Notes under the pieces: generated by a model | The model's input: the letters and a program-made list of their open reading frames with translations, nothing else | Told to the model about the DNA's origin: nothing | Database searches by the model: none | In this document: positions 10,726-49,657 of the stretch, in pieces | How positions within the stretch are numbered: the first letter of the stretch is position 1 | Layout: the number at the start of each line of letters is the position of its first letter | From: Caldichromatium japonicum | GTDB lineage: Bacteria; Pseudomonadota; Gammaproteobacteria; Chromatiales; Chromatiaceae | Assembly (NCBI RefSeq): GCF_011290485.1 | Contig: NZ_CP048029.1 | Location: forward strand, 1,595,155-1,659,154 | Reading direction: 5' to 3' | DNA: 64,000 nucleotides | Made by a program: the position numbers and the translations under genes

Positions 10726-11694
10726 ATGGAAAGACGAGACATGAGATTGCTGTCGTTTGCGGCGCGCGAAGAGCGGCGGCGTGGCTGGAGGTATGAAGCG
10801 ATAGGCGCGCAGAGGGGATTGTTGGGCGCAGGGGTGTTCGACATCTGCAAACGCTATGGGCGCGAAGGGGCCCAAGGGCTCAAGGACAAGGTGGGCGAGA
10901 AGCGGGCGCTGTTGGCGGAGCAGGACGCCCAGATACGCAAGCTCATGTGCGACGGGACACCGGATCAGCTGAAGCTGCCGTTTGCGCTGTGGCAGTTGAT
11001 CCTCGACCGTTTTGGCATCGAGCTCAGGCCGCAGGGGGAAGGCAAGTACATGGCGCGCTGGGGATTGACGCCCCAGAAACCGATTCGGCGCGCCTATGAG
11101 CAAAGCCCGCCGGCGGGCAAGACGTGGCTTGAGGAGACCTACCCGGACATTGCCCGGCGCGCCAAGGCCGAGGGCGCCGAAATCCACTGGGGCGATGAAA
11201 CGGGGCTGCGCTCGGACGAGGTGCGCGGGCGCTCTTATGCGCCGGCGATCAAGACGCCCGAGATTCGCGTCACGCACCGTCGCGAAGGCCTGTCGGTGAT
11301 CTCGACGCTGACCAACCGCGGCAAGGTGCGTCGGAAGGCGTTCGCGGGGGCGATGAACGCCGACATCCTGATCGACTTCATGAAGCGGCTCGTCAAGGAC
11401 GCCAGGGGCAAGAAGATCTTCCTCATCCTCGACAACCTGCGCGTGCATCACACCAAGCCGGTCAAAGCCTGGCTGGCTGCATGCGCCAATCAAATCGAGG
11501 CCTCCTCCCTCCCCTCCTACAGCCCAGCACTGAACCCCAACGAGATGCTCAAGGCCACCATCACCGCGCAGGCGCCCTCCCGCGCCAAGGGCGATCTGAA
11601 GAAGGCGACCGTCAGCCACCTGCGCCGCCTTCTCAATTCCCCCCAACGCATCATGCGCTACTTCCAGCATCCCAAGCTCCATGATGCCGCGTAA
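10726..11694 (+). CDS. IS630-family DDE transposase
   Basis: An apparently intact transposase of about 322 residues if started at ATG 10726 (ATG 10702 would add eight). The N-terminal third contains a helix-turn-helix region. The catalytic triad is recognisable as D in EIHWGDETGLRS, D in IFLILDNLRVHH and E in SPALNPNEML, the IS630 arrangement. The protein is close to identical to the copy at 49.7 kb. A family member of usual length (about 330-345) would be functional in principle. Confidence 0.88.
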   Translation: MERRDMRLLSFAAREERRRGWRYEAIGAQRGLLGAGVFDICKRYGREGAQGLKDKVGEKRALLAEQDAQIRKLMCDGTPDQLKLPFALWQLILDRFGIELRPQGEGKYMARWGLTPQKPIRRAYEQSPPAGKTWLEETYPDIARRAKAEGAEIHWGDETGLRSDEVRGRSYAPAIKTPEIRVTHRREGLSVISTLTNRGKVRRKAFAGAMNADILIDFMKRLVKDARGKKIFLILDNLRVHHTKPVKAWLAACANQIEASSLPSYSPALNPNEMLKATITAQAPSRAKGDLKKATVSHLRRLLNSPQRIMRYFQHPKLHDAA

Positions 11695-33662: not shown

Positions 33663-34181
33663 CTGCTCTCAAGACAGTGCGCAAACAGGCGCACTGTGCT
33701 CTTCCTGCCCCGAATGCGGAGCGCATTCGTCTCTGACAGGCGTGACTTTCCCGACTGCGGCAGAGACCCTCTCTGCTGTAGCGCCGCCGTTACCGGACGG
33801 ACTCGCCACGGGTAGGGCAGTTGCGGTTGCCAGCCGTTTGAGATTGAGCGCGGCATTGATGTCCCGATCATGGCGCGTGCCGCATTGAGGACACGTCCAT
33901 TCCCGATCCTTCAACGCCAACATCTCATTCTCCCAACCACAGACCGAACACAGGCGGCTGCTCGGATCCCAGCGATCCGCAGTACGCGAAACGGTCGCAC
34001 CAAGAATCTTGCCATCGAAGCACAACGCCTCGGTCATAGCGACCTCACCGCTCTTGGGCAGGCAAATGGTCTTGTCCGAGACGCCAAGCCGCTTCGCCGC
34101 TTTGCCTGTGCGCATCATCGTGCTTTCTATGTGGAAAATTATCCACTATCGCGCATAGTTTGTAATGCTGGGGTTGGCTCC
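33663..34181 (-). mobile_element. Mini-IS607 element A (non-autonomous derivative)
   Basis: This 519-bp element shares both ends with the longer copy at 51572-53068: left end GGAGCCAACCC (at 34181) and right end ACTTTCTTGAGAGCAG (at 33663, one base differing here). It arose by two internal deletions that removed the serine-recombinase catalytic domain and the middle of tnpB. Mini-IS607 B differs by only about six bases and lies in the same orientation 2.8 kb away. Its left end is embedded in the 3' end of the octaheme cytochrome gene. Confidence 0.8.
33669..34118 (-). CDS. Chimeric TnpA-TnpB remnant protein of mini-IS607 A
   Basis: An open 149-residue frame. Residues 1-17 ([17 protein letters not shown]) are the winged-helix start of IS607 TnpA. 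A junction follows to TnpB sequence ([16 protein letters not shown]), then a second junction to the TnpB zinc ribbon CSVCG...CPQCG and [11 protein letters not shown], then the usual C-terminal tail. No recombinase active site and only the last RuvC aspartate remain. A minus-strand hairpin GAATGCG-CTC-CGCATTC in its end may belong to the omega RNA. Probably not functional as a nuclease. Confidence 0.6.
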
Positions 34182-36317
34182 TGCTGTGAGCTGTTTGAGA
34201 TCCTGAAGCTCAGCGACCCGCGCGGGCGAATAACCGATGGCAGCGAAGTCCATGACCCCGTTCGGGGCATGACAGTCCGCACACCCATGACCCTGGCGCC
34301 TGATCCCGTGGTTGACCATGAGCGTGCCCATCTGGCGCATCCAGCGTGGCTCGACATCTAGCAATCGGTCACCGACCAGCGGATAACGCGCCTTCCAGCC
34401 CCCCTCCACGCCGAAATAGGCCATAAACTCATCCATCATGTAGAGCTTAAACGGCTCCTGATACATGCGCTGGACGATAGGGTCTTGGATGGCGCGCTTG
34501 AGCGAGGCCAGGGTATCTCCGCTCTCGTAATAGACCTTGTAATCAAAGGGCAGGATCATGGCCCCAAATGGCCCCTGATTATTGAGGTCCTCATACATCA
34601 GGGCGTTGAAGATCTTGAACGGATAGATCCGGCTTTGCCCTTCGTTCATCGCCGGGCGCAGGTTGTTTTCGATCATCGCGCGCCGCCGCTCGATGAGCTC
34701 AGGTGTCAGCTGAGAGAGCGGATCGGTCGCCAGGCGCACATAGCGCTCGACATCGATGTCTGGATAACGTCCCTTTAGCTCGATCGCCTTGGTGCGGATC
34801 GCGGCGATCGCCTCTGGATCGGTGATCCGCACCAGTTGGTTCATCAGCGGATGATAGGTCTCTGAACCGTCTGGGTGGCTGCCCAGGGCATTGGCGAGGA
34901 AGGTCCCGTTGCCATTGAACCAGAGATAGATCAACCCCTTGCCCGGCTCGCCCGAGCGATAGATATCGGTCGGCTCCCAGATCCCTTCCTTTGGGTTCCA
35001 GGTCGGATGCACCCAATCGCGCAGCACGACGCTATTGGGCTCGAGGCGCGGGATATGACAGGTCTCACAGGCCAGGCGTGCGATATGCCCGTTGAGCAGT
35101 GCCTTGTCGGGGGAGGCGTTGTGCGGGGCGCGCCCATGACAGGTCTCGCAGGAGACCTCCTTATCCGGCAGGTCATTGGCGACCAGATCCACCCCCATGC
35201 GCCCGCGTGGGATCTTGTGGCCCTCTGGTCGGTGACAATCGGTGCATTCGAGTCCAGCCGCCGCATGGACGTCGTCATGTGGGCTAAAGGGGCTGCCGCG
35301 CTTAGCGCCCTGGTGCAGGATGCGCTGATGGCGATCACCCAGTGCCTGCGCCGCCTGGTTATAGGCATAGGCATCGCCGCCGAGATTGTGCTGATGGCAG
35401 CGCAGACATTGTTCGGAGCGGATCGGTCCCACGCTCAAGGCCGCCTTGAGGCTGCGGTCCTGATCCCAGCGCAGACCATAACGATCCTCAATCACCACCC
35501 GCCGGTTCATGTCATAGACAGCGGCGTGACAGATCAGGCAGTCGATCCCCTCCTTGGCGGTCTGCGGGACATCGCTGAAAGGCAACATCTTTTCGGTTGC
35601 CGGCTGATAGTTGCCGCCGATATGACACTGGCCGCAGCCCTCGCTGCGCAGTATGGGCCCTGCGGCATGTTCCGGGCGGCTGGTGATGAGGACCGCCCAA
35701 CCGGTCCAGCTAAAGCTCCCCGGGATGCCGCAGGCGCGATTGATCTTGCCGACCGCGATCTTACGGGGTCCGGCATTGACCTGGCGTCCGTCATAGCCAT
35801 AGGTCGAAAAGCCACCCGAGCTACTTTGGAAGCGAAAATGCACCGAATTGACCACATCCTCCAGGGTCTCGACCTGAGAATGCATTCCATCCGGATGTTC
35901 AATCGCTATGGTCTGGTGGCACTGCAGACAGGTCTTGGGGCCTTCATAGCGGCGGATGCCGGCGTTGCGGAAATATTTGATATGGCGCGGTTCGGAATCG
36001 CGGATGAACGATTCCGTATTCATCAGGATCTCGATCTTGATCCGCCGGGCGAAGGGGTCCTGCTCCTCGGAGACGATCGCCTCGGCCTTTTGGCGGCGCG
36101 CCTGTTCGCTCAATGCCTGGGCGATGGCCTCGAACTCATCTGCGCTCAGCGTCCGGCTGCTGTCATAGATCAAGGGCGCATTGACCTTGCCGACGTATGA
36201 TTCGAAGATGCGCGGATACAGGGTGCGATACAATATGATCCCCAGGAGTAGGATGAGGCCGAAGACCAGTAACCCGCGCTTGACCTTGGGTCTCAATAAA
36301 AATTCGACCGGATTCAT
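34146..36317 (-). CDS. Octaheme c-type cytochrome, tetrathionate-reductase (OTR)-like family, with IS-derived C-terminus
   Basis: A 723-residue membrane-anchored cytochrome. A single helix near residues 14-31 anchors it; the rest should be periplasmic. Eight CXXCH heme sites start at about C130, C228, C260, C304, C358, C390, C417 and C679. The sequence around the first hemes (VNSVHFRFQ, CGQCHIGGNY, DCLICHAAVYD) resembles octaheme tetrathionate reductases, which reduce tetrathionate, nitrite or hydroxylamine in vitro. The last 11 residues (GANPSITNYAR) are encoded by mini-IS607 A, so the original C-terminus was cut and replaced. The gene starts four bases inside the cytochrome b stop (ATGA), showing a coupled pair. 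Direction of the reaction in a sulfur bacterium is unknown. Confidence 0.82.
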   Translation of the reverse strand: MNPVEFLLRPKVKRGLLVFGLILLLGIILYRTLYPRIFESYVGKVNAPLIYDSSRTLSADEFEAIAQALSEQARRQKAEAIVSEEQDPFARRIKIEILMNTESFIRDSEPRHIKYFRNAGIRRYEGPKTCLQCHQTIAIEHPDGMHSQVETLEDVVNSVHFRFQSSSGGFSTYGYDGRQVNAGPRKIAVGKINRACGIPGSFSWTGWAVLITSRPEHAAGPILRSEGCGQCHIGGNYQPATEKMLPFSDVPQTAKEGIDCLICHAAVYDMNRRVVIEDRYGLRWDQDRSLKAALSVGPIRSEQCLRCHQHNLGGDAYAYNQAAQALGDRHQRILHQGAKRGSPFSPHDDVHAAAGLECTDCHRPEGHKIPRGRMGVDLVANDLPDKEVSCETCHGRAPHNASPDKALLNGHIARLACETCHIPRLEPNSVVLRDWVHPTWNPKEGIWEPTDIYRSGEPGKGLIYLWFNGNGTFLANALGSHPDGSETYHPLMNQLVRITDPEAIAAIRTKAIELKGRYPDIDVERYVRLATDPLSQLTPELIERRRAMIENNLRPAMNEGQSRIYPFKIFNALMYEDLNNQGPFGAMILPFDYKVYYESGDTLASLKRAIQDPIVQRMYQEPFKLYMMDEFMAYFGVEGGWKARYPLVGDRLLDVEPRWMRQMGTLMVNHGIRRQGHGCADCHAPNGVMDFAAIGYSPARVAELQDLKQLTAGANPSITNYAR

Positions 36318-36934
36318 GGCGCCTGCCCCTCCCGATGCCAGCCGGTGAGCATGGCCATGAGATTCGTCGTCAGGGTCTCACCTGTAGTGATGACATAGAC
36401 ATGGACCACGAGAAAGAGCACGAGGAGATAGGCCGTTGTCAGATGGACCATGGCCACTGCCCAGGTGCCTGGGATGCCAAAAAGGTTCTCGGGCAGATAG
36501 GGTGAAAATAAAAACCACCAGCCGCTGAGGATCAATATGGGCATGAGCCCATACATGACCCCGAGATAGCTCAATTGCTGTAAGACATTGAACTTGATCT
36601 CTGCGCTGACATGGAAGGGGTGCGGTTCATTATGGAAGATCCCATAGGCATAATAACGCAGCTGGACGCTGAGCTGGTCGATAAAGCCTTTGATATGGAT
36701 CAGATAGTGTCGTCCATTTTCGGTCATGATATTGCCGGCGATGAATCCGATCCAGGCAATGGTCAATAAGATACCTGCGCTATTGTGTACCCTGACGGCG
36801 AATTTAAAAGGCATCAGCCAATCGCCGCCGGAAAAATGCATGCTGGCGCCGCTATAGATGAGGGTCAAAAACAACAAAGCATTGATCCAATGCCAAAGAC
36901 GCACCCACAAGGGATAGAGATAGAGCGCCTTCAT
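36314..36934 (-). CDS. PhsC-like membrane cytochrome b
   Basis: A 206-residue four-helix membrane protein like the cytochrome b subunit of thiosulfate reductase and Ni/Fe hydrogenases. Heme-b histidine candidates lie in WVRLWHWINALLF, VRVHNSAGI, MVHLTTAYLL and FLVVHVYVITTGETL. It should pass electrons between quinol and the octaheme cytochrome whose gene overlaps its end. Mini-IS607 B ends only six bases upstream of the ATG, so the native promoter and ribosome-binding site are gone; AGGCAGG from the junction may serve in translation. Confidence 0.85.
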   Translation of the reverse strand: MKALYLYPLWVRLWHWINALLFLTLIYSGASMHFSGGDWLMPFKFAVRVHNSAGILLTIAWIGFIAGNIMTENGRHYLIHIKGFIDQLSVQLRYYAYGIFHNEPHPFHVSAEIKFNVLQQLSYLGVMYGLMPILILSGWWFLFSPYLPENLFGIPGTWAVAMVHLTTAYLLVLFLVVHVYVITTGETLTTNLMAMLTGWHREGQAP

Positions 36935-36940
36935 GCCTGC

Positions 36941-37459
36941 CTGCTCTCAAGAAAGTGCGCAAACAGGCGCACTGTTCTCTTCCTGCCCCGAATGCGGAGC
37001 GCATTCGTCTCTGACAGGCGTGACTTTCCCGACTACGGCAGAGACCCTCTCTGCTGTAGCGCCGCCGTTACCGGACGGACTCGCCACGGGTAGGGCAGTT
37101 GCGGTTGCCAGCCGTTTGAGATTGAGCGCGGCATTGATGTCCCGATCATGGCGCGTGCCGCATTGAGGACACGTCCATTCCCGATCCTTCAACGCCAACA
37201 TCTCATTCTCCCAACCACAGACCGAACACAGGCGGCTGCTCGGATCCCAGCGATCCGCAGTACGCGAAACGGTCGCATCAAGAATCTTGCCATCGAAGCA
37301 CAACGCCTCGGTCATGGCGACCTCACCGCTCTTGGGCAGGCAAATGGTCTTGTCCGAGACGCCAAGCCGCTTCGCCGCCTTGCCTGTGCGCATCATCGTG
37401 CTTTCTATGTGGAAAATTATCCACTATCGCGCATAGTTTGTAATGCTGGGGTTGGCTCC
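36941..37459 (-). mobile_element. Mini-IS607 element B (non-autonomous derivative)
   Basis: 519 bp, same ends, length and internal deletions as mini-IS607 A, with about six base differences. It lies in direct orientation to A. The right end (GAGAGCAG, at 36941) abuts the cytochrome b start and the left end (GGAGCC, at 37459) faces the murF side. Together A and B bracket the two cytochrome genes exactly. Confidence 0.8.
36947..37396 (-). CDS. Chimeric TnpA-TnpB remnant protein of mini-IS607 B
   Basis: 149 residues, differing from the copy in element A at three or so positions (DATVSR for GATVSR, AVVGK for AAVGK, EEN for EEH). The frame has stayed open in both copies even though it encodes only a winged-helix start, a zinc ribbon and the final RuvC aspartate. 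That may reflect recent origin rather than selection. Confidence 0.55.
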
Positions 37460-37789: not shown

Positions 37790-39187
37790 ATGGCCTCCTT
37801 CTGGACCCCTGCTGCATTTGCCCAGATCACCGGCGGTCGCTGGCTGATCCCGCCGCCGGCCCTGGATCAACCCTTGGCTGGTGTCTCTATCGATAGCCGT
37901 CAGTTAGGACCAGGGGCAGTCTTCGTCGCTATCCGCGGTGAACGCCAGGATGGGCACGATTTTGTTGCCCATGCCTTGGCGCAGGGCGCCGCACTGGCCA
38001 TCGTAGAGCAAGAGATCCCCTCGCCTGAGCCTGGCGGGGCGCTGCTCCAGGTCCCTTCAACGATCGGCGCCCTACACGCCTTGGCCCGCCATTACCGCGA
38101 TCTGCTGGGTGCCTCTGGCTGCCGGGTGTTGAGCGTTTCAGGCTCTAATGGCAAGACTACAACCCGTCATCTCATCCACCATGTCTTGACACAAGCCGTT
38201 TGGCGCGGCACGCAAAGTCCACGCAGTTTCAACAATCATCTCGGCGTCCCCCTTACCTTACTGGCCGCCCAGTTGGGGGATGCATTCGTGGTCTGCGAGC
38301 TCGGGACCAATCATCCGGGCGAGTTAGCGGCCCTGGCAGAACTGGTGCGTCCCGATCTGGCTGTGGTCACCAGCATCGGTGAAGAGCATCTGGAGTTCTT
38401 CGGCGACCTCGCGGGGGTGGCGCGGGAGGAGTCAGCGGTATTTGACTTCGTACGCCCTGGCGGATCGGTGGTCTTGCCCGAGGCCCGTTGGTTGCCGCTG
38501 CCCCTAGAGCTGCCTGCAAGGCCAGGTGTGTCCATCTCGCGTTTTGACCTCGATCCTCTGGCTAGTGATCTGCCTCTACCTGGTCTCCACAACCGGCTCA
38601 ACGCCTCGGCCGCTGCCTTAGTCGCACGGCTCTTCGGTGCAGATGATGAGACGATCCGGCGCGCCCTCAACTGCGCTAACGCCCCGCCGCTGCGCAGCGA
38701 GGTGCTATTTGCCGCAGATCCCCTGCGTCCAACGGTCATCAATGACGCCTATAACGCCAACCCCAGCTCCATGGCAGCGGCCTTGTCCCTGCTAAAGGAC
38801 TGGGCGGGGCGGCGGCGCGTTTCCATCCTCGGGGATATGCTCGAACTCGGTGAACGCAGCCCCACTGCCCATCAGGAGGTTGTCGCCTGGGCCTTGGCCG
38901 CAGCAGAGCACTGCATCTTTGTCGGCCCCTGCTTTGCGGCGGCCATCGCTCAGATCTCTCCCAACAAGGCCCCAGGGACAGGGCAGGTAGCGGCCTACAG
39001 CGATTGGTCGACTGAGGTGATCGAGGCCATTCTCGCCGCCCTAACGCCTCAGGATGTGGTGCTGCTGAAGGGGTCTCGGGGGATGGGCATGGAGCGCCTG
39101 ATCCCGGCGATCGAGTCACATTTTCCAAGTGCCACAAACGAAGCCGCAGGTGATGGTCTGGAGTTTCAATCCACACCCGGTTATTAA
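37790..39187 (+). CDS. murF: UDP-N-acetylmuramoyl-tripeptide--D-alanyl-D-alanine ligase
   Basis: MurF adds D-Ala-D-Ala to the UDP-MurNAc tripeptide in the cytoplasm. The 465-residue protein shows [28 protein letters not shown], the ATP loop [11 protein letters not shown] near residue 120, the ELGTNHPGE motif and [13 protein letters not shown]. All are typical of an active enzyme. The last codons (EFQSTPGY) and the stop are not MurF sequence: they read through a CRISPR repeat at 39163-39199. Normally murF sits between murE and mraY in the dcw cluster; here it is alone between a mini-IS607 and a CRISPR-Cas relic. Whether it is the only murF copy cannot be seen. Confidence 0.92.
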
Positions 39188-39199
39188 AAGCCGGGTGAC
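39163..39199 (-). CRISPR. Single leftover CRISPR repeat at the end of murF
   Basis: Read on the minus strand, this 37-base sequence begins GTCACCCGG, has the complementary CCGGGTG after a loop (7-bp stem CACCCGG/CCGGGTG) and ends GTGGATTGAAAC, the usual 3' handle of type I-C and related repeats. It lies downstream of cas2 on the same strand, exactly where the array should start. No second copy and no spacer was found, so the array has collapsed to one repeat. The murF stop codon lies inside it. Confidence 0.75.
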
Positions 39200-39378
39200 T
39201 CCACAACCGCAACCTGCGGTTTCGACTGCGTTGATTGCGGCGCCCGCGCGATCGCAGCAAACACCGGTGTTTTTCGCACCATACATAACTTAGACCAAAC
39301 AAAAAATGCTTTATTAATCAATATATTAACCATCGCGCGATCCCCACAATTCTTTGGCCGTTGCCTAAGGTTCGCGTT
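39200..39378 (-). other. Former CRISPR leader region
   Basis: About 180 bases between cas2 and the lone repeat. The cas2-proximal part near 39286-39333 is very AT-rich, as leaders usually are; the repeat-proximal part is GC-rich. Assignment as leader rests on position only. Confidence 0.45.
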
Positions 39379-39675
<297 letters not shown>

Positions 39676-39680
39676 TTAAA

Positions 39681-40719
39681 TCACTTAGTAAGATATGGAA
39701 GATAACACGCCATCTCGCCATGCACTGTACGAGCCATAAAACGCGCCTGGATAAATGGTAACAAACAGAGCGGCAGTTTGTTACCGGTAAGTGGGTTGGT
39801 AAGCTCTTCTTGTTTACGGTTTTGCCAAGCAACTAAAACCTTGCGTCTACCTGAATCTTTGAGCATCACTGAACCGCCTTCGCGTAATTCAAAATCGTCT
39901 TCTTTAATTTGAGCACGATTGATAAGGGTAAGAGCAAGACGGTCAACCAGCACCGCACGAAACTTTTCGATCAGATCCAAGGCCAGTGCCGCCCTGCCAG
40001 GACGTACAGCGTGCAGAAAACCTAGTTGGAGGTCAAGGCTGACACTTTGCTTTCTAGTGCAGATCGGCAGTCGTTCATTAGCAGGGCATACAAGAATGAT
40101 AACAAGGCATTAAAACGATCGAGTGGATGGCGACGCGTGCGTCCATTGAGCTGAAATACAGGGCGCATATGCGGTTTGACAATCAAATTCAGCGCACCAA
40201 AATAATTACTCGCCGCCTCGCCTTCAATCCCACGTAAACCATCCAAGTCAGTAGCCTCTTTGTCTGTCCTACAAGAAGTAGCAAGATTATCCGCCACCCG
40301 GTTAAGCGCCCTCGACTCCTCTGGATCTGCTGATTCGTGGGCACCGCGCATGAGTAAGGCGCGGCTGTTTCTAATTTTGCCGGCCATACAGGCGCGGGCA
40401 AATTCCAAGACAAATAACGCATTATGAGCCTGTCGGTGCTGGTCTTGCCGAAGCAGGATGTTGCCTGAAACGGGTCCCTCCAAACGCGCTTTAAAACGAC
40501 CGCTTTCCTCTAGTAGCACTAAATTCTTTCCCTCATCGGAAAGTCGGTGCTGAGGGCAGGACTAATTAAGATATTGCCAAACAGAACGAGGCCATCAAGA
40601 TTATGCAACGGCACTCGCAGCAAAGTTTCATGTTTAAAAGTTATGTGCACAGCACTGTTGTTTAGCTGCACATAGGTATTAGGTGTCAGCACATAGAGCG
40701 TGTTTAAAAGGGTGTGCAT
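39681..40719 (-). pseudogene. cas1: cas1 with two frameshifts
   Basis: Three pieces in three frames add up to a type I-C Cas1 of about 345 residues: MHTLLNTLYVLTPNTYVQLNN...GNILISPAL, then RLSDEGKNLVLLEESGRFKARLEGPVSGNILLRQDQH...LLMNDCRSALES, then LQLGFLHAVRPGRAALALDLIEKFRAV. The first shift, near 40565, fits loss of one T in a Met codon (ALMHRLSDEG). The second, near 40035-40050, fits a 5-bp duplication AAAGC/AAAGT. The active-site acidic residues lie in different frames, so no integrase can be made. Confidence 0.88.
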
Positions 40720-40722
40720 GAT

Positions 40723-41365
40723 TTAGGTTTCGTCCAAAATGTAGAGGGCACGGCTAAGCTCAGCATGGCGTGCTTTAGCACTTATCGCTTCGGGTTGACA
40801 AAGCGATTTAAGCGAGCATTCGCGACAGCGAGCATCGTGTGCCGGCATTGGCAGGCGACCGGATTCCAGCATGGTGTTAATGGCGCGAATGGTCTCTTCA
40901 ACCCGCTTCAACCCGCTGCAGCAGGTCCAGTGTGATCTCCACCTCGCGCCGGCATTTACTGCTTGCCTGATAGATAGCACCTCGCGGCACAGGTCGCCCG
41001 AGCATCTCTTCTAAACACATCGCTTGAGCGGTAAGTTGGATATCATCATGAAGTTTCTGGCGCTTGCGACCATGTTTAAACTCGACGGGAAAAATGGTTC
41101 CATTTGGATGAAAATCTACGAGATCGGCCTTGCCAATCAGGCCCAAGCGATCTGACCACAACGGCAATGAGCGTTCTAATTTGATTCCATTTTTTATCTC
41201 ACATGTGGGTTCGCGCACTAATCGATGAACAGCTTGACCCCTGGCGGTATGGATATCGTCCTCAAACTCGCCATCTAGATGAATAATCCCGCACTGGCGC
41301 GGGCAATAGACCCAATGCTCCAGTGCGGAAATAGGGAGCTGATTCTGGCGTGAAATCTCTTTCAA
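40723..41365 (-). pseudogene. cas4: cas4 broken by a 10-bp tandem duplication
   Basis: A type I-C Cas4 nuclease, involved in spacer trimming with Cas1. The N-terminal part (ISALEHWVYCPRQCGIIHLDGEF...VEFKHGRKRQKLHDDIQLTAQAMCLEEML) carries the first cluster cysteine and the nuclease core. The C-terminal part (RLPMPAHDARCRECSLKSLCQPEA) carries the other cysteines. The join is a perfect 10-bp duplication of CTTCAACCCG at 40896-40915 (plus strand), which shifts the frame after DLLQRVE. Removing one unit restores a normal protein of about 210 residues. Confidence 0.9.
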
Positions 41366-41572: not shown

Positions 41573-42439
41573 TTACGACTTCTCAATCAACTGCACGCCT
41601 TGCGGCACGCTCGCCTTGTCCACCGTCACGACATAATCGCCAAAACAGCGCGGGGGATTGGCTTCGGGCTTGCGCTCGACCTTGACCAACTCGAAAAACT
41701 TGTGTGCAGGGGCGTTGCCCAGGTCGCTGTCGTGCTTGAAAACGAACAACTTGCGGGTGGCCATCTTGCCGCGCGCCGCCGAGCGGTCATGCTCGAACAT
41801 GTTGATGAGCGCCTCCCAGAACAGGTTCAGGTCTTCTTCCGAAAAGCCCGTGCCTTTAGTCGGGTCGTTGGCGAGTTTGGCGGAGATGTAGCCTTCCACG
41901 CGGTACAAGGCATAGGGGACGATGTGCTTGCGGCCCATCGTGCGTTCTTTGTCGGCTTCGTCTTCGGGGGTGACGGTCAGGCGGGTGATGGTCACTTCCT
42001 GCTGGACGATGGGGTCAATGCTGCGGGAAAAGTTCAGTTGCACAGGTCCGCGTACCTGACCACAGTTATCGCCCACGCTCAAGACTGCGCCAAAGGTGCG
42101 GATGTCGTAAAAGTTCTGGCACATTCAGGCGCGGGCTTTGTTCACGCCAGCGACGTCGGCTTTCTTGCCAGGTTCAAGACCGACGGCGAGATAGGCTTCT
42201 TTGTGATTGGCGTTCAGCGGAATGCCTTCCTTGATGTAAATGCGGTAACCTGGTGTGCCGCCCTTGACCATCTCCATATAGTTGCGGATTTTGCGCTTCA
42301 GGCAGACATCGGTGATGATACTGTAGCCCGTTTCGGGGTCAATGCGCGGCATATTGCCCGCATCGGGGTCGCCGTTGGGGTTGCCGTTCTCCACGTCGTA
42401 GAGCATAACGAATTCGTAGCGGTTGGAAAGAATGGTCAT
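41573..42439 (-). pseudogene. cas7: cas7 (csd2, type I-C) with one nonsense codon
   Basis: The frame starting MTILSNRYEFVMLYDVENGNPNGDPDAGNMPR is a type I-C Cas7, the backbone subunit of Cascade. It reads on for about 288 residues but is cut by TGA at 42125-42127. Family members have Trp there ([16 protein letters not shown]), so TGG became TGA. The part after the stop ([18 protein letters not shown]...[20 protein letters not shown]) is undamaged. A start upstream at 42490 is less likely because the family begins at the later ATG. Confidence 0.9.
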
Positions 42440-42485
42440 GAATATCTCCTTTTTTGAATAAAATTGTTTGATTGATGTTTTTAGT

Positions 42486-42560
42486 GTCATTGCGAGGGCG
42501 AAGCCCGAAGCAATCTCAACTCAAACTGGAGACTGCTTCGCTCTACGGGCTCGCAGTGAC
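42486..42560. repeat. GTCATTGCGAG-type palindromic repeat, copy 2
   Basis: 75 bp with arms GTCATTGCGAG and CTCGCAGTGAC and inner GAAGCAATC/GACTGCTTCG. It occupies the junction between cas7 and cas8c. Confidence 0.8.
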
Positions 42561-43908
42561 ATCGTTATTCAGATTGGTTTGTTTCCTCGCCATTGTCCTT
42601 CTTTGCGTAGAACGCGGCGCGCTGGTGATAGTAACCCAGCACAAACACGCCTTGTTCTTCCAGCGTTAACCGAGTGGGAAAGGGCTTGGCGTCGAGCATG
42701 TTGAGTAAATCTTTGATTCTCCTGTCACTTACATGGCCATATTGCGATTTTTCGATATGATGATGAGCAAGTCGCAACAAGGTTGGGAAAACGCTGGCGG
42801 GGTTTGCCGAAGCAGAAGTGAAGTAGCGGTCTTTGGCGGTCTTTGATGGTGGAATTGAGTTTGACGGGCTTGGCCGCTTCGACTTACAAGTCTTCCAGCA
42901 CAGCGAACAGGCGTCCCAGCACATAGGCGGGATGGGTATAGGATTCATTGAGTGACATTTGCAAGGCCTCCTGATAGGGATTATTGCATCCACGGCGGTA
43001 CTTAGGGATGAGATGCGCCTTGATGTACGCGGCGCGAATGTAGTTGATTTTGACGCTGCGCGCTTTGCCCTTCTCGCTGGTTTCGTCCGAGTCGCGGCGG
43101 ATGCGGTTAAGTATGGCGACATACAGCCCTTCGGGGTAGGGCCGCCCTTGAGAATGGAACGCATGAATGCCCCGCCCAATAGCGACCAGGACTTCTTCAC
43201 ATCGTCGTCGCGCTGGGTTACTTTGGGCGAGACGCACTCGGCAAGGATGCGGTAGGGCGAGATGTAGGCTGGCTGATTGGCATATTCCTTTTCGATTTGC
43301 AGGTCGTCGTAATGCTGCATGATGCGCTCGGCGAACACGCCAAACGGTTCGGTGAGGAAGAAGCGCACGGCCAGGCGCGAAGCATTTGGGGCGAGTCCCA
43401 ATACGTAGAAGCGCGTACTTTCATCCAAGCCTTTGCGCAAGGCGGCAAGGTCAATCGCTTTTCCCTGCCGTACCGATTCAGCCACTTGACCCATTTCCTT
43501 TTCCGCTTCTTTGGCTCGCTTGCGCTTGCCTTTGTTTTCTTCGGGTTCGCTCTCTTCTTGTTCCTGCTGGAACTCTGGATGGAGAAAAGATTAGAACGCA
43601 CTGGCATAACGTTTGTCAGCCGTGTCCGCTCAATAGACGACAGTAGTATCAATAGTATCGCCAAGAAAAATTGGACGGTTGGGGTTTTACCTGGAAAGCA
43701 AGTAGTTGAGCGCAACACCATAGCCCGATGCAACGCGTTGGCTGATGGGAGAATTTGCGCCCTATTCCTTCCCATAAGAAGTAAACGCATCCAGATTGAA
43801 ACTTACCAACGATGCGCCTTTTGTTTGCGCTCCTGGTGAGCTTCCCCCGAAATTTCGTCTTCCAAGGGATGGGGTATAACGCCCCGTAGATTGGAAGGAG
43901 CAACGAAG

Positions 43909-44202
43909 TTGAAAAAGATACCGAAGCAGGAATACACGGCCGAATTTCGGGAGTTGGCGGTAAAGCGGGTAAAGACGGGCCAGACGGTTGGGGTGGTAGC
44001 GAAGGAGCTGGGGCTGATCGAGCAGACGCTGCGCAACTGGGTCAAGGCGTTCGAGGCGGGCAAGCTCAACGGCCCTGGCACGAAGCCGGTCACGCCGGAG
44101 CAAATGGAGCTCTCGCGGGTGCGGGCGGAGAACGTTCGGCTCAAGCGCGAGAACGAAATCCTAAAAAAAGCGGCGGCGTACTTTGCGAGAGATGCGCTAT
44201 GA
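43909..44202 (+). CDS. IS3-family transposase OrfA
   Basis: A helix-turn-helix protein of 97 residues if started at TTG 43909, which follows GGAAGGAG by eight bases. The sequence (M)KKIPKQEYTAEFRELAVKRVKTGQTVGVVAKELGL is the DNA-binding half. A leucine-zipper-like helix (LSRVRAENVRLKRENEILKKAAAYF) follows. It overlaps orfB by four bases, and the run of seven A near its end allows programmed -1 frameshifting. Confidence 0.88.
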   Translation: MKKIPKQEYTAEFRELAVKRVKTGQTVGVVAKELGLIEQTLRNWVKAFEAGKLNGPGTKPVTPEQMELSRVRAENVRLKRENEILKKAAAYFARDAL

Positions 44203-45053
44203 AGTACGCGTGGATCGACGCGCATCGGAAGGAATTCGAACTGACGGGAATGTGCGAGGCGCTGGCGGTGAGCGCCAGCGGCTACCGCGCCTGGAAGCGC
44301 GGCGGCACGGCGGAACGCAAACGGCTCACGGATACGCAGATGCTGGCGCTGATCCGCGCCATCCACGCTGAACTGAAAGGGGCCTACGGCAGCCCGCGCA
44401 TCACGCGGGAGTTGCGGGAGCGCGGCTTTCCGGAGAGCAAGGAACGCGTCGAACGCCTGATGCGCGAGAACGGTATCCGTGCCCGCCACAAGCGGCGATT
44501 CAAGGCGACGACGGATTCCAGGCACAGCCTGCCGGTAGCGCCGAATCAGGTCTGGACGGCTGATCTGACCTACATCTGGACCGATGAAGGTTGGCCCTAC
44601 CTGGCCATGGTCCTCGATCTGTTCAACAGGGAAGTCGTGGGCTGGTCGATCAAGCCAAGGATGACGACGGACATCGTCATTGACGCCCTGACCATGGCGT
44701 GGTTCCGCAAGAAGCCGACCCCGGGGCTGATTCATCACTCCGACCGGGGAAGCCAGTATGCAAGTGGCGCCTTTCAGGCGCGGCTGAAAGAGTACGGCAT
44801 GATCTGCTCGATGAGCCGCAAGGGGAACTGCTGGGATAACGCGCCGACCGAGAGCTTCTTCAACAGCTTGAAGAATGAGCGGGTGCATGGCACCCGCTAC
44901 GGCACGCGGGATGCAACGGCGGCCGATCTGTTCGACCACATCGAGCCGTTCTACAACCGCAGGCGAAAGCATTCGCCGCTCGGCTACGCCTCGCCCATGA
45001 AGTTCCTGGAGGGCTGGATCAGCGCTCAGCATGAGCAGAAATTGGCGGCATAA
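44199..45053 (+). CDS. IS3-family transposase OrfB
   Basis: A 284-residue DDE integrase domain. An HTH_21-type N-terminal region (YGSPRITRELRERGF) precedes the catalytic core. The aspartate lies in VWTADLTYIW, the second aspartate in LIHHSDRGSQYAS, and the glutamate in CWDNAPTESFFNSLKNE. It ends with FYNRRRKHSPLGYASPMKF as usual for IS3. Apparently functional. Confidence 0.92.
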   Translation: MKYAWIDAHRKEFELTGMCEALAVSASGYRAWKRGGTAERKRLTDTQMLALIRAIHAELKGAYGSPRITRELRERGFPESKERVERLMRENGIRARHKRRFKATTDSRHSLPVAPNQVWTADLTYIWTDEGWPYLAMVLDLFNREVVGWSIKPRMTTDIVIDALTMAWFRKKPTPGLIHHSDRGSQYASGAFQARLKEYGMICSMSRKGNCWDNAPTESFFNSLKNERVHGTRYGTRDATAADLFDHIEPFYNRRRKHSPLGYASPMKFLEGWISAQHEQKLAA

Positions 45054-45730
45054 TGCCAATAGGTTGGAAGACGAAAAACAGAGGGAAGCTCATGGGACGC
45101 CCTTGATGTCAGGATGCAGGCGCGCAACAGGCTCTTTTTGTCGCGTGACCAGGCATTGCATCTCAGTCGCTTGTCTCCCTGTCCTAGATTCTTCCCAAAC
45201 ACGCCGAATTTCAGGGTCGTCCAGCACGTTCTTTCCTCGTACCTGAAAAATGAGATTGCCGCCTTCCAGCAATCCTTCCAGATGGCGAGCAATCCCAGAA
45301 TGCTGAGATGCTGTTTGCGGGTTGTGCTGTTTCAGAAAAGCAATGACCGCGCGCGCCGAAGGGGAATTGGCTTTCTCAAGAATTTCGATGTTCAACTTTT
45401 GAAACGCCTCGAAACGCTTTTAGGCATACGCTGGGTCTTTGGCTTTTTTGCCTGTCAGCCCCAGCACATAGGCGGCATTATCACGCAAAAAGTTTGCGGT
45501 CACGTTCACGCTGCGCTTGACTTGTTCGGGAACATTCATGCGCTTGGGGCGATTTACCGTCTTCTTCCCTTGCTGAACTGGAACTGAGAAGGGAATAATG
45601 TCCAGCAACTCGCCTTCGGGTGAAAGATTGAGCGCAAAACTAATTTTCGCCGCGCTGTACCCAGGCTCGGCAATCTCCACGTCTGGGTCATCCAGCAAAA
45701 TCTGGTAGTAGTTGTAGAGCGACGGCAAAA

Positions 45731-46399
45731 TCATCGCCGCACCTCCTCAGGCTTTGGCACGACAACCATGCCGTCTTCCATAATGGCGCGGAAGAACATC
45801 GGCTGAATGTCGCGCGGATTGGAGAAATCCAGGTCGTAGAGCATATAGCCCAGGTCGCGCTTGCCCGTCAGCGGGCTTTTGGGGATTGCGCCTTTCTCTT
45901 CGATGAGCGTCACTTTGGCAGGGAACTCACGCGTCCCCAGGCAGGGGGCATGGAAATGCTGTCCGTTGCGCAGGCGGCGCAAGACGATGTTGTAATATCC
46001 TTCTTCCGTGTCGCGTTCGCCCCATTCCTTCTCTACCTTCTCAAAGTGTGCTTCGATGACGTAATCCACATCCTTCAAGACCATGGCGGCGCGCTGCTGG
46101 CGAGACTCCGTGGCGGCGATATAGAGCGGCTTATTGGCGCCATTTATCACCTGCAAAGCGTTGTCTACCGACGCTTTATCGCTCACCTCGTTGCGGCGGA
46201 TGTTGGTGAACTCGATTTCGCGCAGGACGTGTGTTTTATCGATCACCCAGCGGATGGCGGGCTTCCAATAGACCCCCTCGATAATGCCGCGCGCCGCCGA
46301 TGGGGTGATAACGCCGTAACTGACGCGCTCCACTTTCATTTCGGGATGGGTGAATAGGGCGTAGGGTCCCTGAACTCGGATGGTGATACCGTATCCCAT
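45731..46399 (-). CDS. cas5: Cas5c (Cas5d), type I-C crRNA-processing subunit
   Basis: The only undamaged gene of the locus: 222 residues, the usual length. The N-terminal strand MGYGITIRVQGPYALFTHPEMKVERVSYGVITPSAARGIIEGVYWKP is the family signature. The glycine-rich and FxAPCLGTREFP features of Cas5d follow. In type I-C it cuts the repeat transcript in place of Cas6. Its stop overlaps the cas8c start by four bases. With the array reduced to one repeat and partners broken, it has no obvious substrate. Confidence 0.92.
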   Translation of the reverse strand: MGYGITIRVQGPYALFTHPEMKVERVSYGVITPSAARGIIEGVYWKPAIRWVIDKTHVLREIEFTNIRRNEVSDKASVDNALQVINGANKPLYIAATESRQQRAAMVLKDVDYVIEAHFEKVEKEWGERDTEEGYYNIVLRRLRNGQHFHAPCLGTREFPAKVTLIEEKGAIPKSPLTGKRDLGYMLYDLDFSNPRDIQPMFFRAIMEDGMVVVPKPEEVRR

Positions 46400-46518: not shown

Positions 46519-48767
46519 TTAGAACAACAACCCATCCCCGCCGCCGCTTTCGGGGACAAGCAGACCGCGATGCGGGTCATAATACTCTTTCATGGCGTCT
46601 GGATTGAGAACGTGATAGGTATCATCAATGGTCAAAATCACTCCTTTCGAACTGAGTTTATCGAACTCGCCCTCGTAAATTGAGACCGTGTAGGGCTGAA
46701 GTTTCCGCAGTGTGGAGAAGGGATACTCGGTGTATTTCAACTCCTCGATGAGCCGCTCTGCCTCCTCGTTGTAGGGGATAATCACCGTCACGGTCGGGTC
46801 ATCGATAATTTGGAAGGCGTGCGCCGCCGTCTCAAACTCGAACCTGCCCTCGGCGTCCTCGAAGCATTCCATGATGCGTTTGTAATCGAACGCCTGCGGG
46901 TCTTGCAGGTTGTACATCGGCGCTTTTGCATGGTCACGCAAGACCATGCGGGCGACTTCTGCTGTCTGTTTCAGGAAGGACGGCGTTTTCTTGATGAATG
47001 CCGAACTTTGGCTCGAAAACGAACATCTCGCTCACGCCGCGCTTCATCTCGCGGTTGACGCGCCCCGCTGCCTGGTTGATGGAATCCAGCCCGCTCAGGG
47101 CGCGGTAACCGACGGGAAAATCCACGTCAATGCCCGCCTCCATTACCGTTGTGGAAACCACGCGACAGGGCTGTTTGTCCTTCAGTCTTTGCTCAACCTC
47201 CTTCAACTTCTCTCTGCGGTGCGCAGGACACATCAGCGTCGAAAGGTGGTAATTCCCTTCACCGCGCAGCCCGCTGAACAATCCGCTGGCGTGGCGGCGG
47301 GTGTTGACGATGCACAGGGCTTGCTCGTGCGCGTTCAGACGGGCGAGCAATTCCTCATCAGTCAGTGTTCCCAAATGTTTCACTTCCACGCGCTTGTAAA
47401 AGTCGAACAATTCCTGCGGGTTGGGCGCCAGTTCGGTGACCTTTGTCTCTGCGGGCAGGAAGCGCTCCAGCCCTGGCTGGGTGGCGGTGCAAAAGACCGC
47501 ACTCGCGCCGTAGTTGGTCACCAGTTCCCACACCGCCGCCATTGCAGGACGCATATATTCGCGCGGCAGCATTTGGGCTTCGTCGAAGATAATCACGCTT
47601 TTGGCGATGTTGTGCAATTTGCGACAGCGCGATGATTTGTTGGCAAACAGCGACTCAAAAAACTGCACATTGGTTGTGACCACGATGGGGATGTCCCAGT
47701 TCTCCGCCGCCAGTTTGAGTTTGGCAAGGACGCTATTGGTGCGGTTATCGACGTCCTCGCGTTTCTTGCCCTCCCAATCGAAATTGGAGTGATGTTCCAG
47801 CACGTTTTCTTCGCCCAAAAAGCCTTTGAAGACGCCCGCAATCCGCACCGACTACGCCGCAGATAGCATCATCCACATCTTCTGCTCGATAATGGTGGTG
47901 AACGGGATAACGTAGATGACGCGCTTCAAGCCGTGTTCAGCGGCGTGATGCAGGGCAAACGCCATCGAAGCCAGCGTCTTGCCGCCGCCCGTCGGTACGG
48001 TGAGCGAGAAGAAGCCAGGCTTTTCGGTTTTTCCTTTCTCGATGCACGCTTGAAGTATCTCATTGCGCTTGCGGTTGATGTCGCTGGTCGGGTTTGCGAA
48101 TTGATTAAGGTGCGCATCCAGTTTGTCGCGCAGGGCTGGGATGTCGTCATGTCCGCCGCGCGGCCTTGCGCCCTTCATGTAAGTTTCGGTTTCCTGAAAG
48201 TCGGCGTCCACCAGCGCCGAGTAAATCATGCGCGTCAGGAAGGAAAGCGAAAATCCAAAATAATCTTTAGGCGGCTTTTCGGGAATAACTGGCAGTCGCA
48301 ACGGACGGATGGGCAAGCGCTGTGGAAATGGTAATGCCGACAAATCCAACTCACTCTTGTATTCGCCGTAATGGGGGATGTTGTTTTTCAACCGCCCGCA
48401 AACGGTGCTGCCTTCCAGGTCGGTCTCGCTGCCGTAATCAGGCAAGCCCGCGTGATGTCCCAGGATGGGATACACCAAAAGTTGGGCAAAGACTTTTTGC
48501 GGCGTGTTTTCAAGCAGGGTTTTCAGTTCCTTCGCGCCCGCTGTTGAATGGTCTACGCGCGGATCGCCCTCCAGCCGCTTTTGAAACTAGGTCGTGAATC
48601 AACCCCGCGATGTATGCTAAATCTGCTACATTGGCGTCCGCGCCAAAGTCGCGCGCCATTTCGGCGGTTTTTCGCAAATGGTCAATCAGCGGCTGCCAGT
48701 TTTCACGGTCTTCCCCAGCGCGGCGATGGGCAAAGAAACGCGTTTTTGGCTCGCTGAGACTTCCCAC
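46519..48767 (-). pseudogene. cas3: cas3 (type I-C helicase-nuclease), broken in at least three places
   Basis: HD nuclease plus superfamily 2 helicase that degrades the DNA target. The N-terminal part reads SEPKTRFFAHRRAGEDRENWQPLIDHLRKTAEMARD...GLIHDL. The frame is then lost where GKF should follow (about five bases missing near 48585), destroying the HD site. Helicase motifs VPTGGGKTLASMAFAL, IIFDEAQMLP, FCTATQP and INQAAGRVNRE are intact. About 39 extra bases with a TAG lie near 47850, after TTIIEQ. An added T near 47015 shifts the frame again (FEPK/SAFIKKTPSF). The C-terminal domain (46519-46947) is otherwise normal. Confidence 0.88.
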
Positions 48768-49657
48768 CCCATACACCCTCGCCAGCCTCCGCGCCTCCTT
48801 CTCCAGCGCCTCGCGCAATTCCTTTGGCTCCAACACCTCCACATCCGCCCCCCAGCCGCGAATCCAAGGGAGCATTTCGCGCCATTCGGCAATCTCCACG
48901 CTCCACATGCGCCCGCCGTCTTCGGTCGGTTCAACCCGTTCCAATGGGTGCCAAACGCTTTCCTCCAGGCGTTGAATCACCGCGGGGTTGGGGAAGAAGC
49001 GCAGTTTGACCGTGAGGGGCGGACGGTCGGCGTACCAGATGCCCCAGGCGTGTTTGAGCAGCCGCTCATCGTTAAACGCGGCGGGGATCTCAAAGGTCTC
49101 TCCGGTTAAAAGGGCGTTCAGGATGCGCTCGATCTTGAAGGCCTAGATGTTGTCGTCGAAGTCACTCTGGACAATGACGTAGATGCTGTCGCTCCAGATG
49201 GACGGCTCGATGAGATACGGGCTGATGGTGTGGAGGGTGAGACCTTCGCGTCCGAGCCGCTGATACTCGATGGGCACCTTGCGCTGCCCCACCCAGCCTT
49301 GAGTCACCGCTTCCAGGATCTTGACCTTCTGCGAGTCTTCGCCGCGGTTGGCGAGTCGTTCTGCCGTTTTGAGCAGGCGTTCTGCCATCGGTTGGCGGCC
49401 AGTTTATCCATGCCGCTGGCGGCGTGCGGGTGGCGAAAGCGCGTCTGCCGGGCGGTCTTGCGCGTCGCCAGGTAAAGCGTCAGCGCCTCGTGCAGGTTGA
49501 CCTTTACCTCGGAAATCAGGCGGGTTCGGTCAATCCTCCAGCGCCCGCGTTCGATCTCCACAAAGGGATAGCCCTCGGCCTCCAGGTCGAGACGGTCGGC
49601 GAAGACATCGCGCGCGAGCTTGAAGCGCATTTCAATAGCCTTGGACTGGAGGTCCAA
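48768..49657 (-). pseudogene. WYL-domain transcriptional regulator of the CRISPR locus, broken
   Basis: Fragments of a DeoR/WYL-type regulator: EAEGYPFVEIERGRWRIDRTRLISEVKVNLHEALTLYLATRKTARQTRFRHPHAASGMDKLA, then after a frameshift near 49390 MAERLLKTAERL...VPIEYQRLGREGLTLHTISPYLIEPSIWSDSIYVIV. TAG at 49143-49145 comes next, then AFKIERILNALLTGETFEIPAAF and the C-terminal WCX part. The N-terminal helix-turn-helix is missing; IS630 copy 3 lies 60 bases upstream. The last part runs in frame into cas3 without a stop. WYL proteins often regulate cas operons. Confidence 0.75.

Follow-up and report, generated by a model that had tools for sequence, protein, structure and literature searches.

How does the only intact murF of a genome come to end inside a CRISPR repeat? 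In the stretch of DNA analysed here (64,000 nucleotides, referred to as the window), the reading frame of a murF gene runs into a CRISPR repeat lying beside a broken cas operon, and an earlier note on this DNA had proposed that an array deletion fused CRISPR DNA to an essential gene. Our analysis suggests a modified answer, in which a rearrangement, probably a deletion accompanied by fold-back (template-switch) synthesis at the palindromic repeat, is likely to have erased both the array and the original murF stop codon. The locus is a rearrangement scar, and not a new system. The features discussed below are collected in Table 1.

Table 1. Features at the junction of murF2 and the type I-C locus, in window positions.
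Feature	Position	Strand	Remarks
murF2, intact, 465 aa	37790..39187	+	Mur_ligase, Mur_ligase_M and Mur_ligase_C domains
Last codons of the probable native murF, H F P S A T (N at the junction)	39122..39139	+	from the ends of orthologs
Inverted imperfect copy of the last ~27 nt of the leader	39137..39162	+	codes roughly for EAAGDGL(E); anchored alignment, fold null
CRISPR repeat 1	39163..39199 (39 nt if to 39201)	-	encodes FQSTPGY and TAA of murF on the + strand
Type I-C leader	39200..39380	-	lies from cas2 stop to repeat 1, as do the 12 related leaders aligned with it
cas2 with in-frame stop	39381..39675	-	66% identical to cas2 of G180
cas1c in three frames (two frameshifts)	39684..40848	-	sole Cas1 in the genome
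cas4c with frameshift	40726..41365	-	PADLOC best model Cas4c
cas7c split by in-frame stop	41573..42490	-	PADLOC Cas7b/Cas7c
cas8c, pieces in several frames, split by an IS3-type element	42565..45803	-	PADLOC Cas8c
cas5c, uninterrupted	45731..46399	-	PADLOC Cas5c
cas3, in-frame stop at 47849-47851 and N-terminal frame change	46934..48980	-	PADLOC Cas3c

A leader-adjacent repeat in a decayed type I-C locus

The 37-nt repeat reads GTCACCCGGCTTTTAATAACCGGGTGTGGATTGAAAC, with the CACCCGG/CCGGGTG stem and the handle GTGGATTGAAAC that the earlier note had described. A full-length match to the Rfam model CRISPR-DR9 covers 39163-39201 (29.4 bits, E=0.00064), with a score below the gathering score of 45. 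When the cas2 ends and leaders of 12 type I-C loci from the same family are aligned with the window, leader motifs are found in common (GGTTGC and GGA, in the leader arm described below, among them), and the window repeat takes the position of repeat 1, which bears out the proposed place and orientation of the first repeat after cas2. Because leader and cas2 end align with these loci at the same spacing, a chance resemblance to a CRISPR repeat is excluded, and from its sequence and position we regard the 37-mer as a genuine, leader-adjacent repeat of a type I-C locus. One paired substitution sets its stem apart from the usual CGCCCGG/CCGGGCG. Arrays whose 37-nt repeats follow the pattern GCATCGCCCGGCCAATTGGCCGGGCG(C/T)GGATTGAAAC adjoin the nearest Cas1 relatives in the family, which share 54-71% identity with the central fragment (the weakest, 51%). 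A looser scan of public genomes found many arrays with such repeats, some of them with an ACCCGG/CCGGGT stem, in relatives that include Thiocapsa, Lamprocystis and Thiodictyon; from these names, we take the host to be a relative of the purple sulfur bacteria.

Nothing else of the array survives. In the genome of 2,989,870 bases there is a single occurrence of the 12-nt handle, and a whole-genome search for the 37-mer with up to 3 mismatches, as the earlier note had suggested, returned no second copy in 2.99 Mb, these counts referring to the handle and 37-mer of the GTCACCCGGCTTTTAATAACCGGGTGTGGATTGAAAC type only. With the same tolerance, the 37-mer was found in 0 of 54 genomes of relatives. 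The I-C locus thus has no repeat-spacer array, as the genome has one copy of this repeat.

The I-C gene set cas3, cas5c, cas8c, cas7c, cas4, cas1 and cas2 is present in order, and a leader and repeat adjoin cas2, as in type I-C loci; the subtype was assigned from the best PADLOC models (Cas3c, Cas5c, Cas8c, Cas4c, Cas1c and Cas7b/Cas7c), with cas2 identified by homology. All of these genes except cas5c are broken, and no second Cas1 gene was found in the genome. To judge from its reading frames, the I-C system is dead. The IS3-type element in cas8c lies at about 43891-45053 and consists of two overlapping frames. Elsewhere in the window, two near-identical 149-aa frames with a Cas12f1-like/TnpB domain (33669-34118 and 36947-37396) flank a pair formed by a multihaem cytochrome and a cytochrome b (34146-36934).

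A second MurF family in place of the dcw murF

The window gene has the three Mur ligase domains, and MurF is the closest match among solved structures, the structure of S. pneumoniae MurF aligning up to window residue 444. There are six Mur_ligase_M genes in the genome, which we read, from position and sequence rather than from family-library runs, as murC, murD, murE, an Mpl-like gene, folC and the window gene. Neither these genes nor a search with the MurF of a congener revealed another complete MurF that could complement it. Since it is the sole MurF in a genome rated 99.97% complete, the window gene presumably acts as the cell's MurF, adding D-Ala-D-Ala to UDP-MurNAc-tripeptide, and to call it essential, as the earlier note did, is reasonable.

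The murF of the dcw cluster, between ftsI and mraY, has been reduced to about 68 codons, MWTLTQAFGPGAEHY...RAARMEQIVAALC..., in which the start and the last part are joined in frame; it is the remnant of an internal deletion. The congener's MurF gave only a 50-residue match (2227130-2227279), where about 448 residues would be expected, and KGSR is changed to KGLR in the remnant. The remnant lies outside the window, at about 2227040-2227340 in genome coordinates (11037-11343 of the extracted locus L038). The dcw cluster also lacks murE, and a murE-like gene is located at about 1.134 Mb.

By sequence, the window gene is not an ordinary dcw murF but a member of a second MurF family, which we call murF2. 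It is 55-60% identical to orthologs in 14 other genomes of the family and about 40% identical to dcw MurFs. Seven congeners lack murF2 at the cut-off used, and all seven keep the dcw murF. In the window genome, murF2 has displaced the dcw MurF, and it appears to have replaced the dcw type also in eight genomes of one other genus (G176, G178-G182, G184 and G185), where murF2 is present and a dcw-type MurF gives no match; murF2 therefore probably suffices. In most genomes of that genus, an IclR-like regulator frame lies 3' of murF2. Genomes of three other genera carry both genes. One genome that also has a dcw murF, G203, has a murF2 with both a stop and a deletion close to the 3' end (L058; G203:C152:1978-3234), which looks like a pseudogene. 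Two further genomes have a small CRISPR array, with the unrelated repeat GTCCGAACCAGAGACCCGATCTAAAGGGGATTAAGAC, a few hundred bases downstream of the 3' end of murF2; like the CRISPR locus of the window, it is on the opposite strand (L041 8404-8690 in G033; L147 about 8760 in G111). This array is absent in G110, of the same genus, and its position next to murF2 is possibly a coincidence.

The C-terminal tail and its inverted arm

Comparison of the murF ends in relatives places the end of the window gene in doubt as native sequence. The 14 murF2 orthologs end 1-9 residues past the equivalent of an HF/RF pair (window residues 444-445), in unrelated peptides, and the window protein extends 20 residues beyond HF, so that the orthologs stop about 12-19 residues earlier; its tail peptide is shared by none of the 14. 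The repeat supplies the end and the stop codon of the gene, as proposed. The peptide attributed to it, EFQSTPGY, needs a small correction: FQSTPGY and the stop lie wholly inside the repeat, but of the E codon before them just the third base belongs to it. In total, the last ~16 codons and the stop of the sole intact murF are best read as coming from the dead CRISPR locus. The exact junction (about 39137-39140) is uncertain because native murF2 C-termini vary.

Immediately left of the repeat, ~24-26 nt reproduce the last ~27 nt of the leader, imperfectly and in inverted orientation. An alignment anchored at the repeat scores 10, and the 99,057 26-mers drawn at random from the window all score lower; with repeat and leader held constant, 0 of 3,976 random left flanks gave as good a fold. 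Both tests followed the noticing of the fold. An unanchored local comparison is weaker, with 82 of 19,862 random 50-mers doing as well. The sequences after repeats in 13 related array loci score at most 6, versus 10 for the window. The arms are mismatched at several positions, and beyond about 27 nt the similarity is lost. When folded, 39140-39290 forms a long hairpin (-69.7 kcal/mol, z = -6.1) whose loop contains the murF stop codon. Of the two arms, the one within murF is probably the copy and the leader arm the source, because the latter is in its normal place and shares the motifs named above with other leaders. The residues EAAGDGLE thus look leader-derived. A terminator reading of the hairpin is unsupported, with no U-tract and no terminator found on the + strand. 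Nor is there support for deriving the stretch before the repeat from a spacer: its 63 nt gave no convincing phage match, and we do not count as evidence the match of an 18-mer from it to just 2 contigs in the viral collection.

Origin of the fusion

These observations can be assembled into a sequence of events, whose order around the deletion is our reconstruction, the relatives compared including no close one with the ancestral arrangement. A type I-C CRISPR-cas locus would have stood convergent with murF2 at the start, and its cas genes would have decayed. A local rearrangement, presumably a deletion, would then have removed all spacers, all repeats except the leader-adjacent one, and the stop codon of murF2. 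In the same event or soon after, about 25 nt of the leader may have been copied back, inverted, onto the far side of the palindromic repeat, as by fold-back or template-switch synthesis at its hairpin; given the fusion, we judge the case for this step to be evenly balanced. The murF2 frame would from then on have read the inverted leader copy, then the repeat, and stopped at the TAA in the loop. The gene would still work as the only MurF because the tail is located beyond the folded C-terminal domain, and the tail itself is presumably neutral, as a sole copy of MurF carries it. The fusion and the loss of the rest of the array therefore stand from the original proposal, but a plain deletion does not account for the ~8 codons that resemble the inverted leader.

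A plain deletion is nevertheless the simplest event. Unequal recombination between repeats, for example, followed by loss into murF, could have produced the fusion, with the arms alike by chance or later convergence and EAAGDGLE either native to murF or the remnant of a spacer; the tails of orthologs do vary in length and sequence, and a spacer would sit in this same place. However, no random 26-mer matches the leader end as well when anchored, and the stretch before the repeat has no convincing counterpart in phages, so we consider this account unlikely. The inverted arm could also be a truncated spacer, taken by Cas1-Cas2 from the locus's own leader, with the next repeat and everything beyond it deleted later. 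The copy does start exactly at the spacer side of the repeat and is slightly shorter than a spacer. The usual type I-C motif before a protospacer is TTC, and the three bases in that place here are different; moreover, the source would have to be the extreme end of the leader, touching the repeat, and the similarity ends at about 27 nt, all of which makes self-acquisition very improbable in our view.

Two further explanations concern the hairpin itself. A G+C-rich hairpin located between convergent genes might be an ordinary terminator that resembles a repeat by chance and owes nothing to CRISPR, but the fit of leader and repeat position to 12 array loci refutes this, and CRISPR-DR9 matches the whole length of the 37-mer; we give the idea next to no credence. 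Alternatively, the leader-repeat palindrome, CRISPR-derived, may have been recruited as a 3' end element of the murF mRNA, acting on stability, termination or level, and been kept by selection after immunity was lost. The strength of the fold, the position between convergent genes, and a stem intact despite the decay of the cas genes all speak for such a role. Yet the U-tract and terminator were not found there on the + strand, and a recent scar would look identical; we hold recruitment to be improbable. The preferred reading remains a scar of deletion with fold-back copying.

Implications

Decayed CRISPR loci are familiar. Within its partial coverage, our literature search returned no report of a lone repeat or leader-repeat unit ending an essential gene, nor of a vestigial array of such a kind, and likewise no report of this kind on a second murF in purple sulfur bacteria. 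The locus indicates that the decay of an immune system can rewrite an essential gene. A CRISPR repeat is a natural hairpin, and the loss of the array appears to have involved fold-back copying at it. A second MurF family has taken the place of the normally fixed dcw murF, whose deletion remnant persists in the same genome, and the tail lends itself to a simple test of MurF's tolerance for foreign C-terminal sequence. If the hairpin were after all recruited, the case would be one of exaptation, a CRISPR leader-repeat palindrome having become a functional element of an essential gene.

Comparison with known systems

The I-C loci of the family (G180, G022, G137 and others) share with the window the cas4-cas1-cas2 order, the leader motifs, the position of repeat 1, the GGATTGAAAC handle and the CCCGG/CCGGG stem. 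In those loci cas1 is uninterrupted and the arrays hold many repeats separated by differing spacers, whereas the window locus has one repeat, zero spacers and broken cas genes. The MurF structures 3zm5, 2am1, 1gg4 and 4cvk have all three Mur ligase domains in common with the window protein and align over residues 26-444; unlike them, the window protein has an added C-terminal tail. It also differs from the dcw MurF of its own genus, to which it is about 40% identical, and its gene lies outside the dcw cluster. As for the copying step, a yeast study describes template switching between inverted repeats that rewrites coding sequence (PMC8604942). Template-switch mutations of this kind (quasipalindromes) resemble the window in having imperfect inverted arms around a palindromic centre, with one arm in coding sequence; the window differs in that the centre is a CRISPR repeat, the source arm would be its leader, and the step is deduced from the arms themselves.
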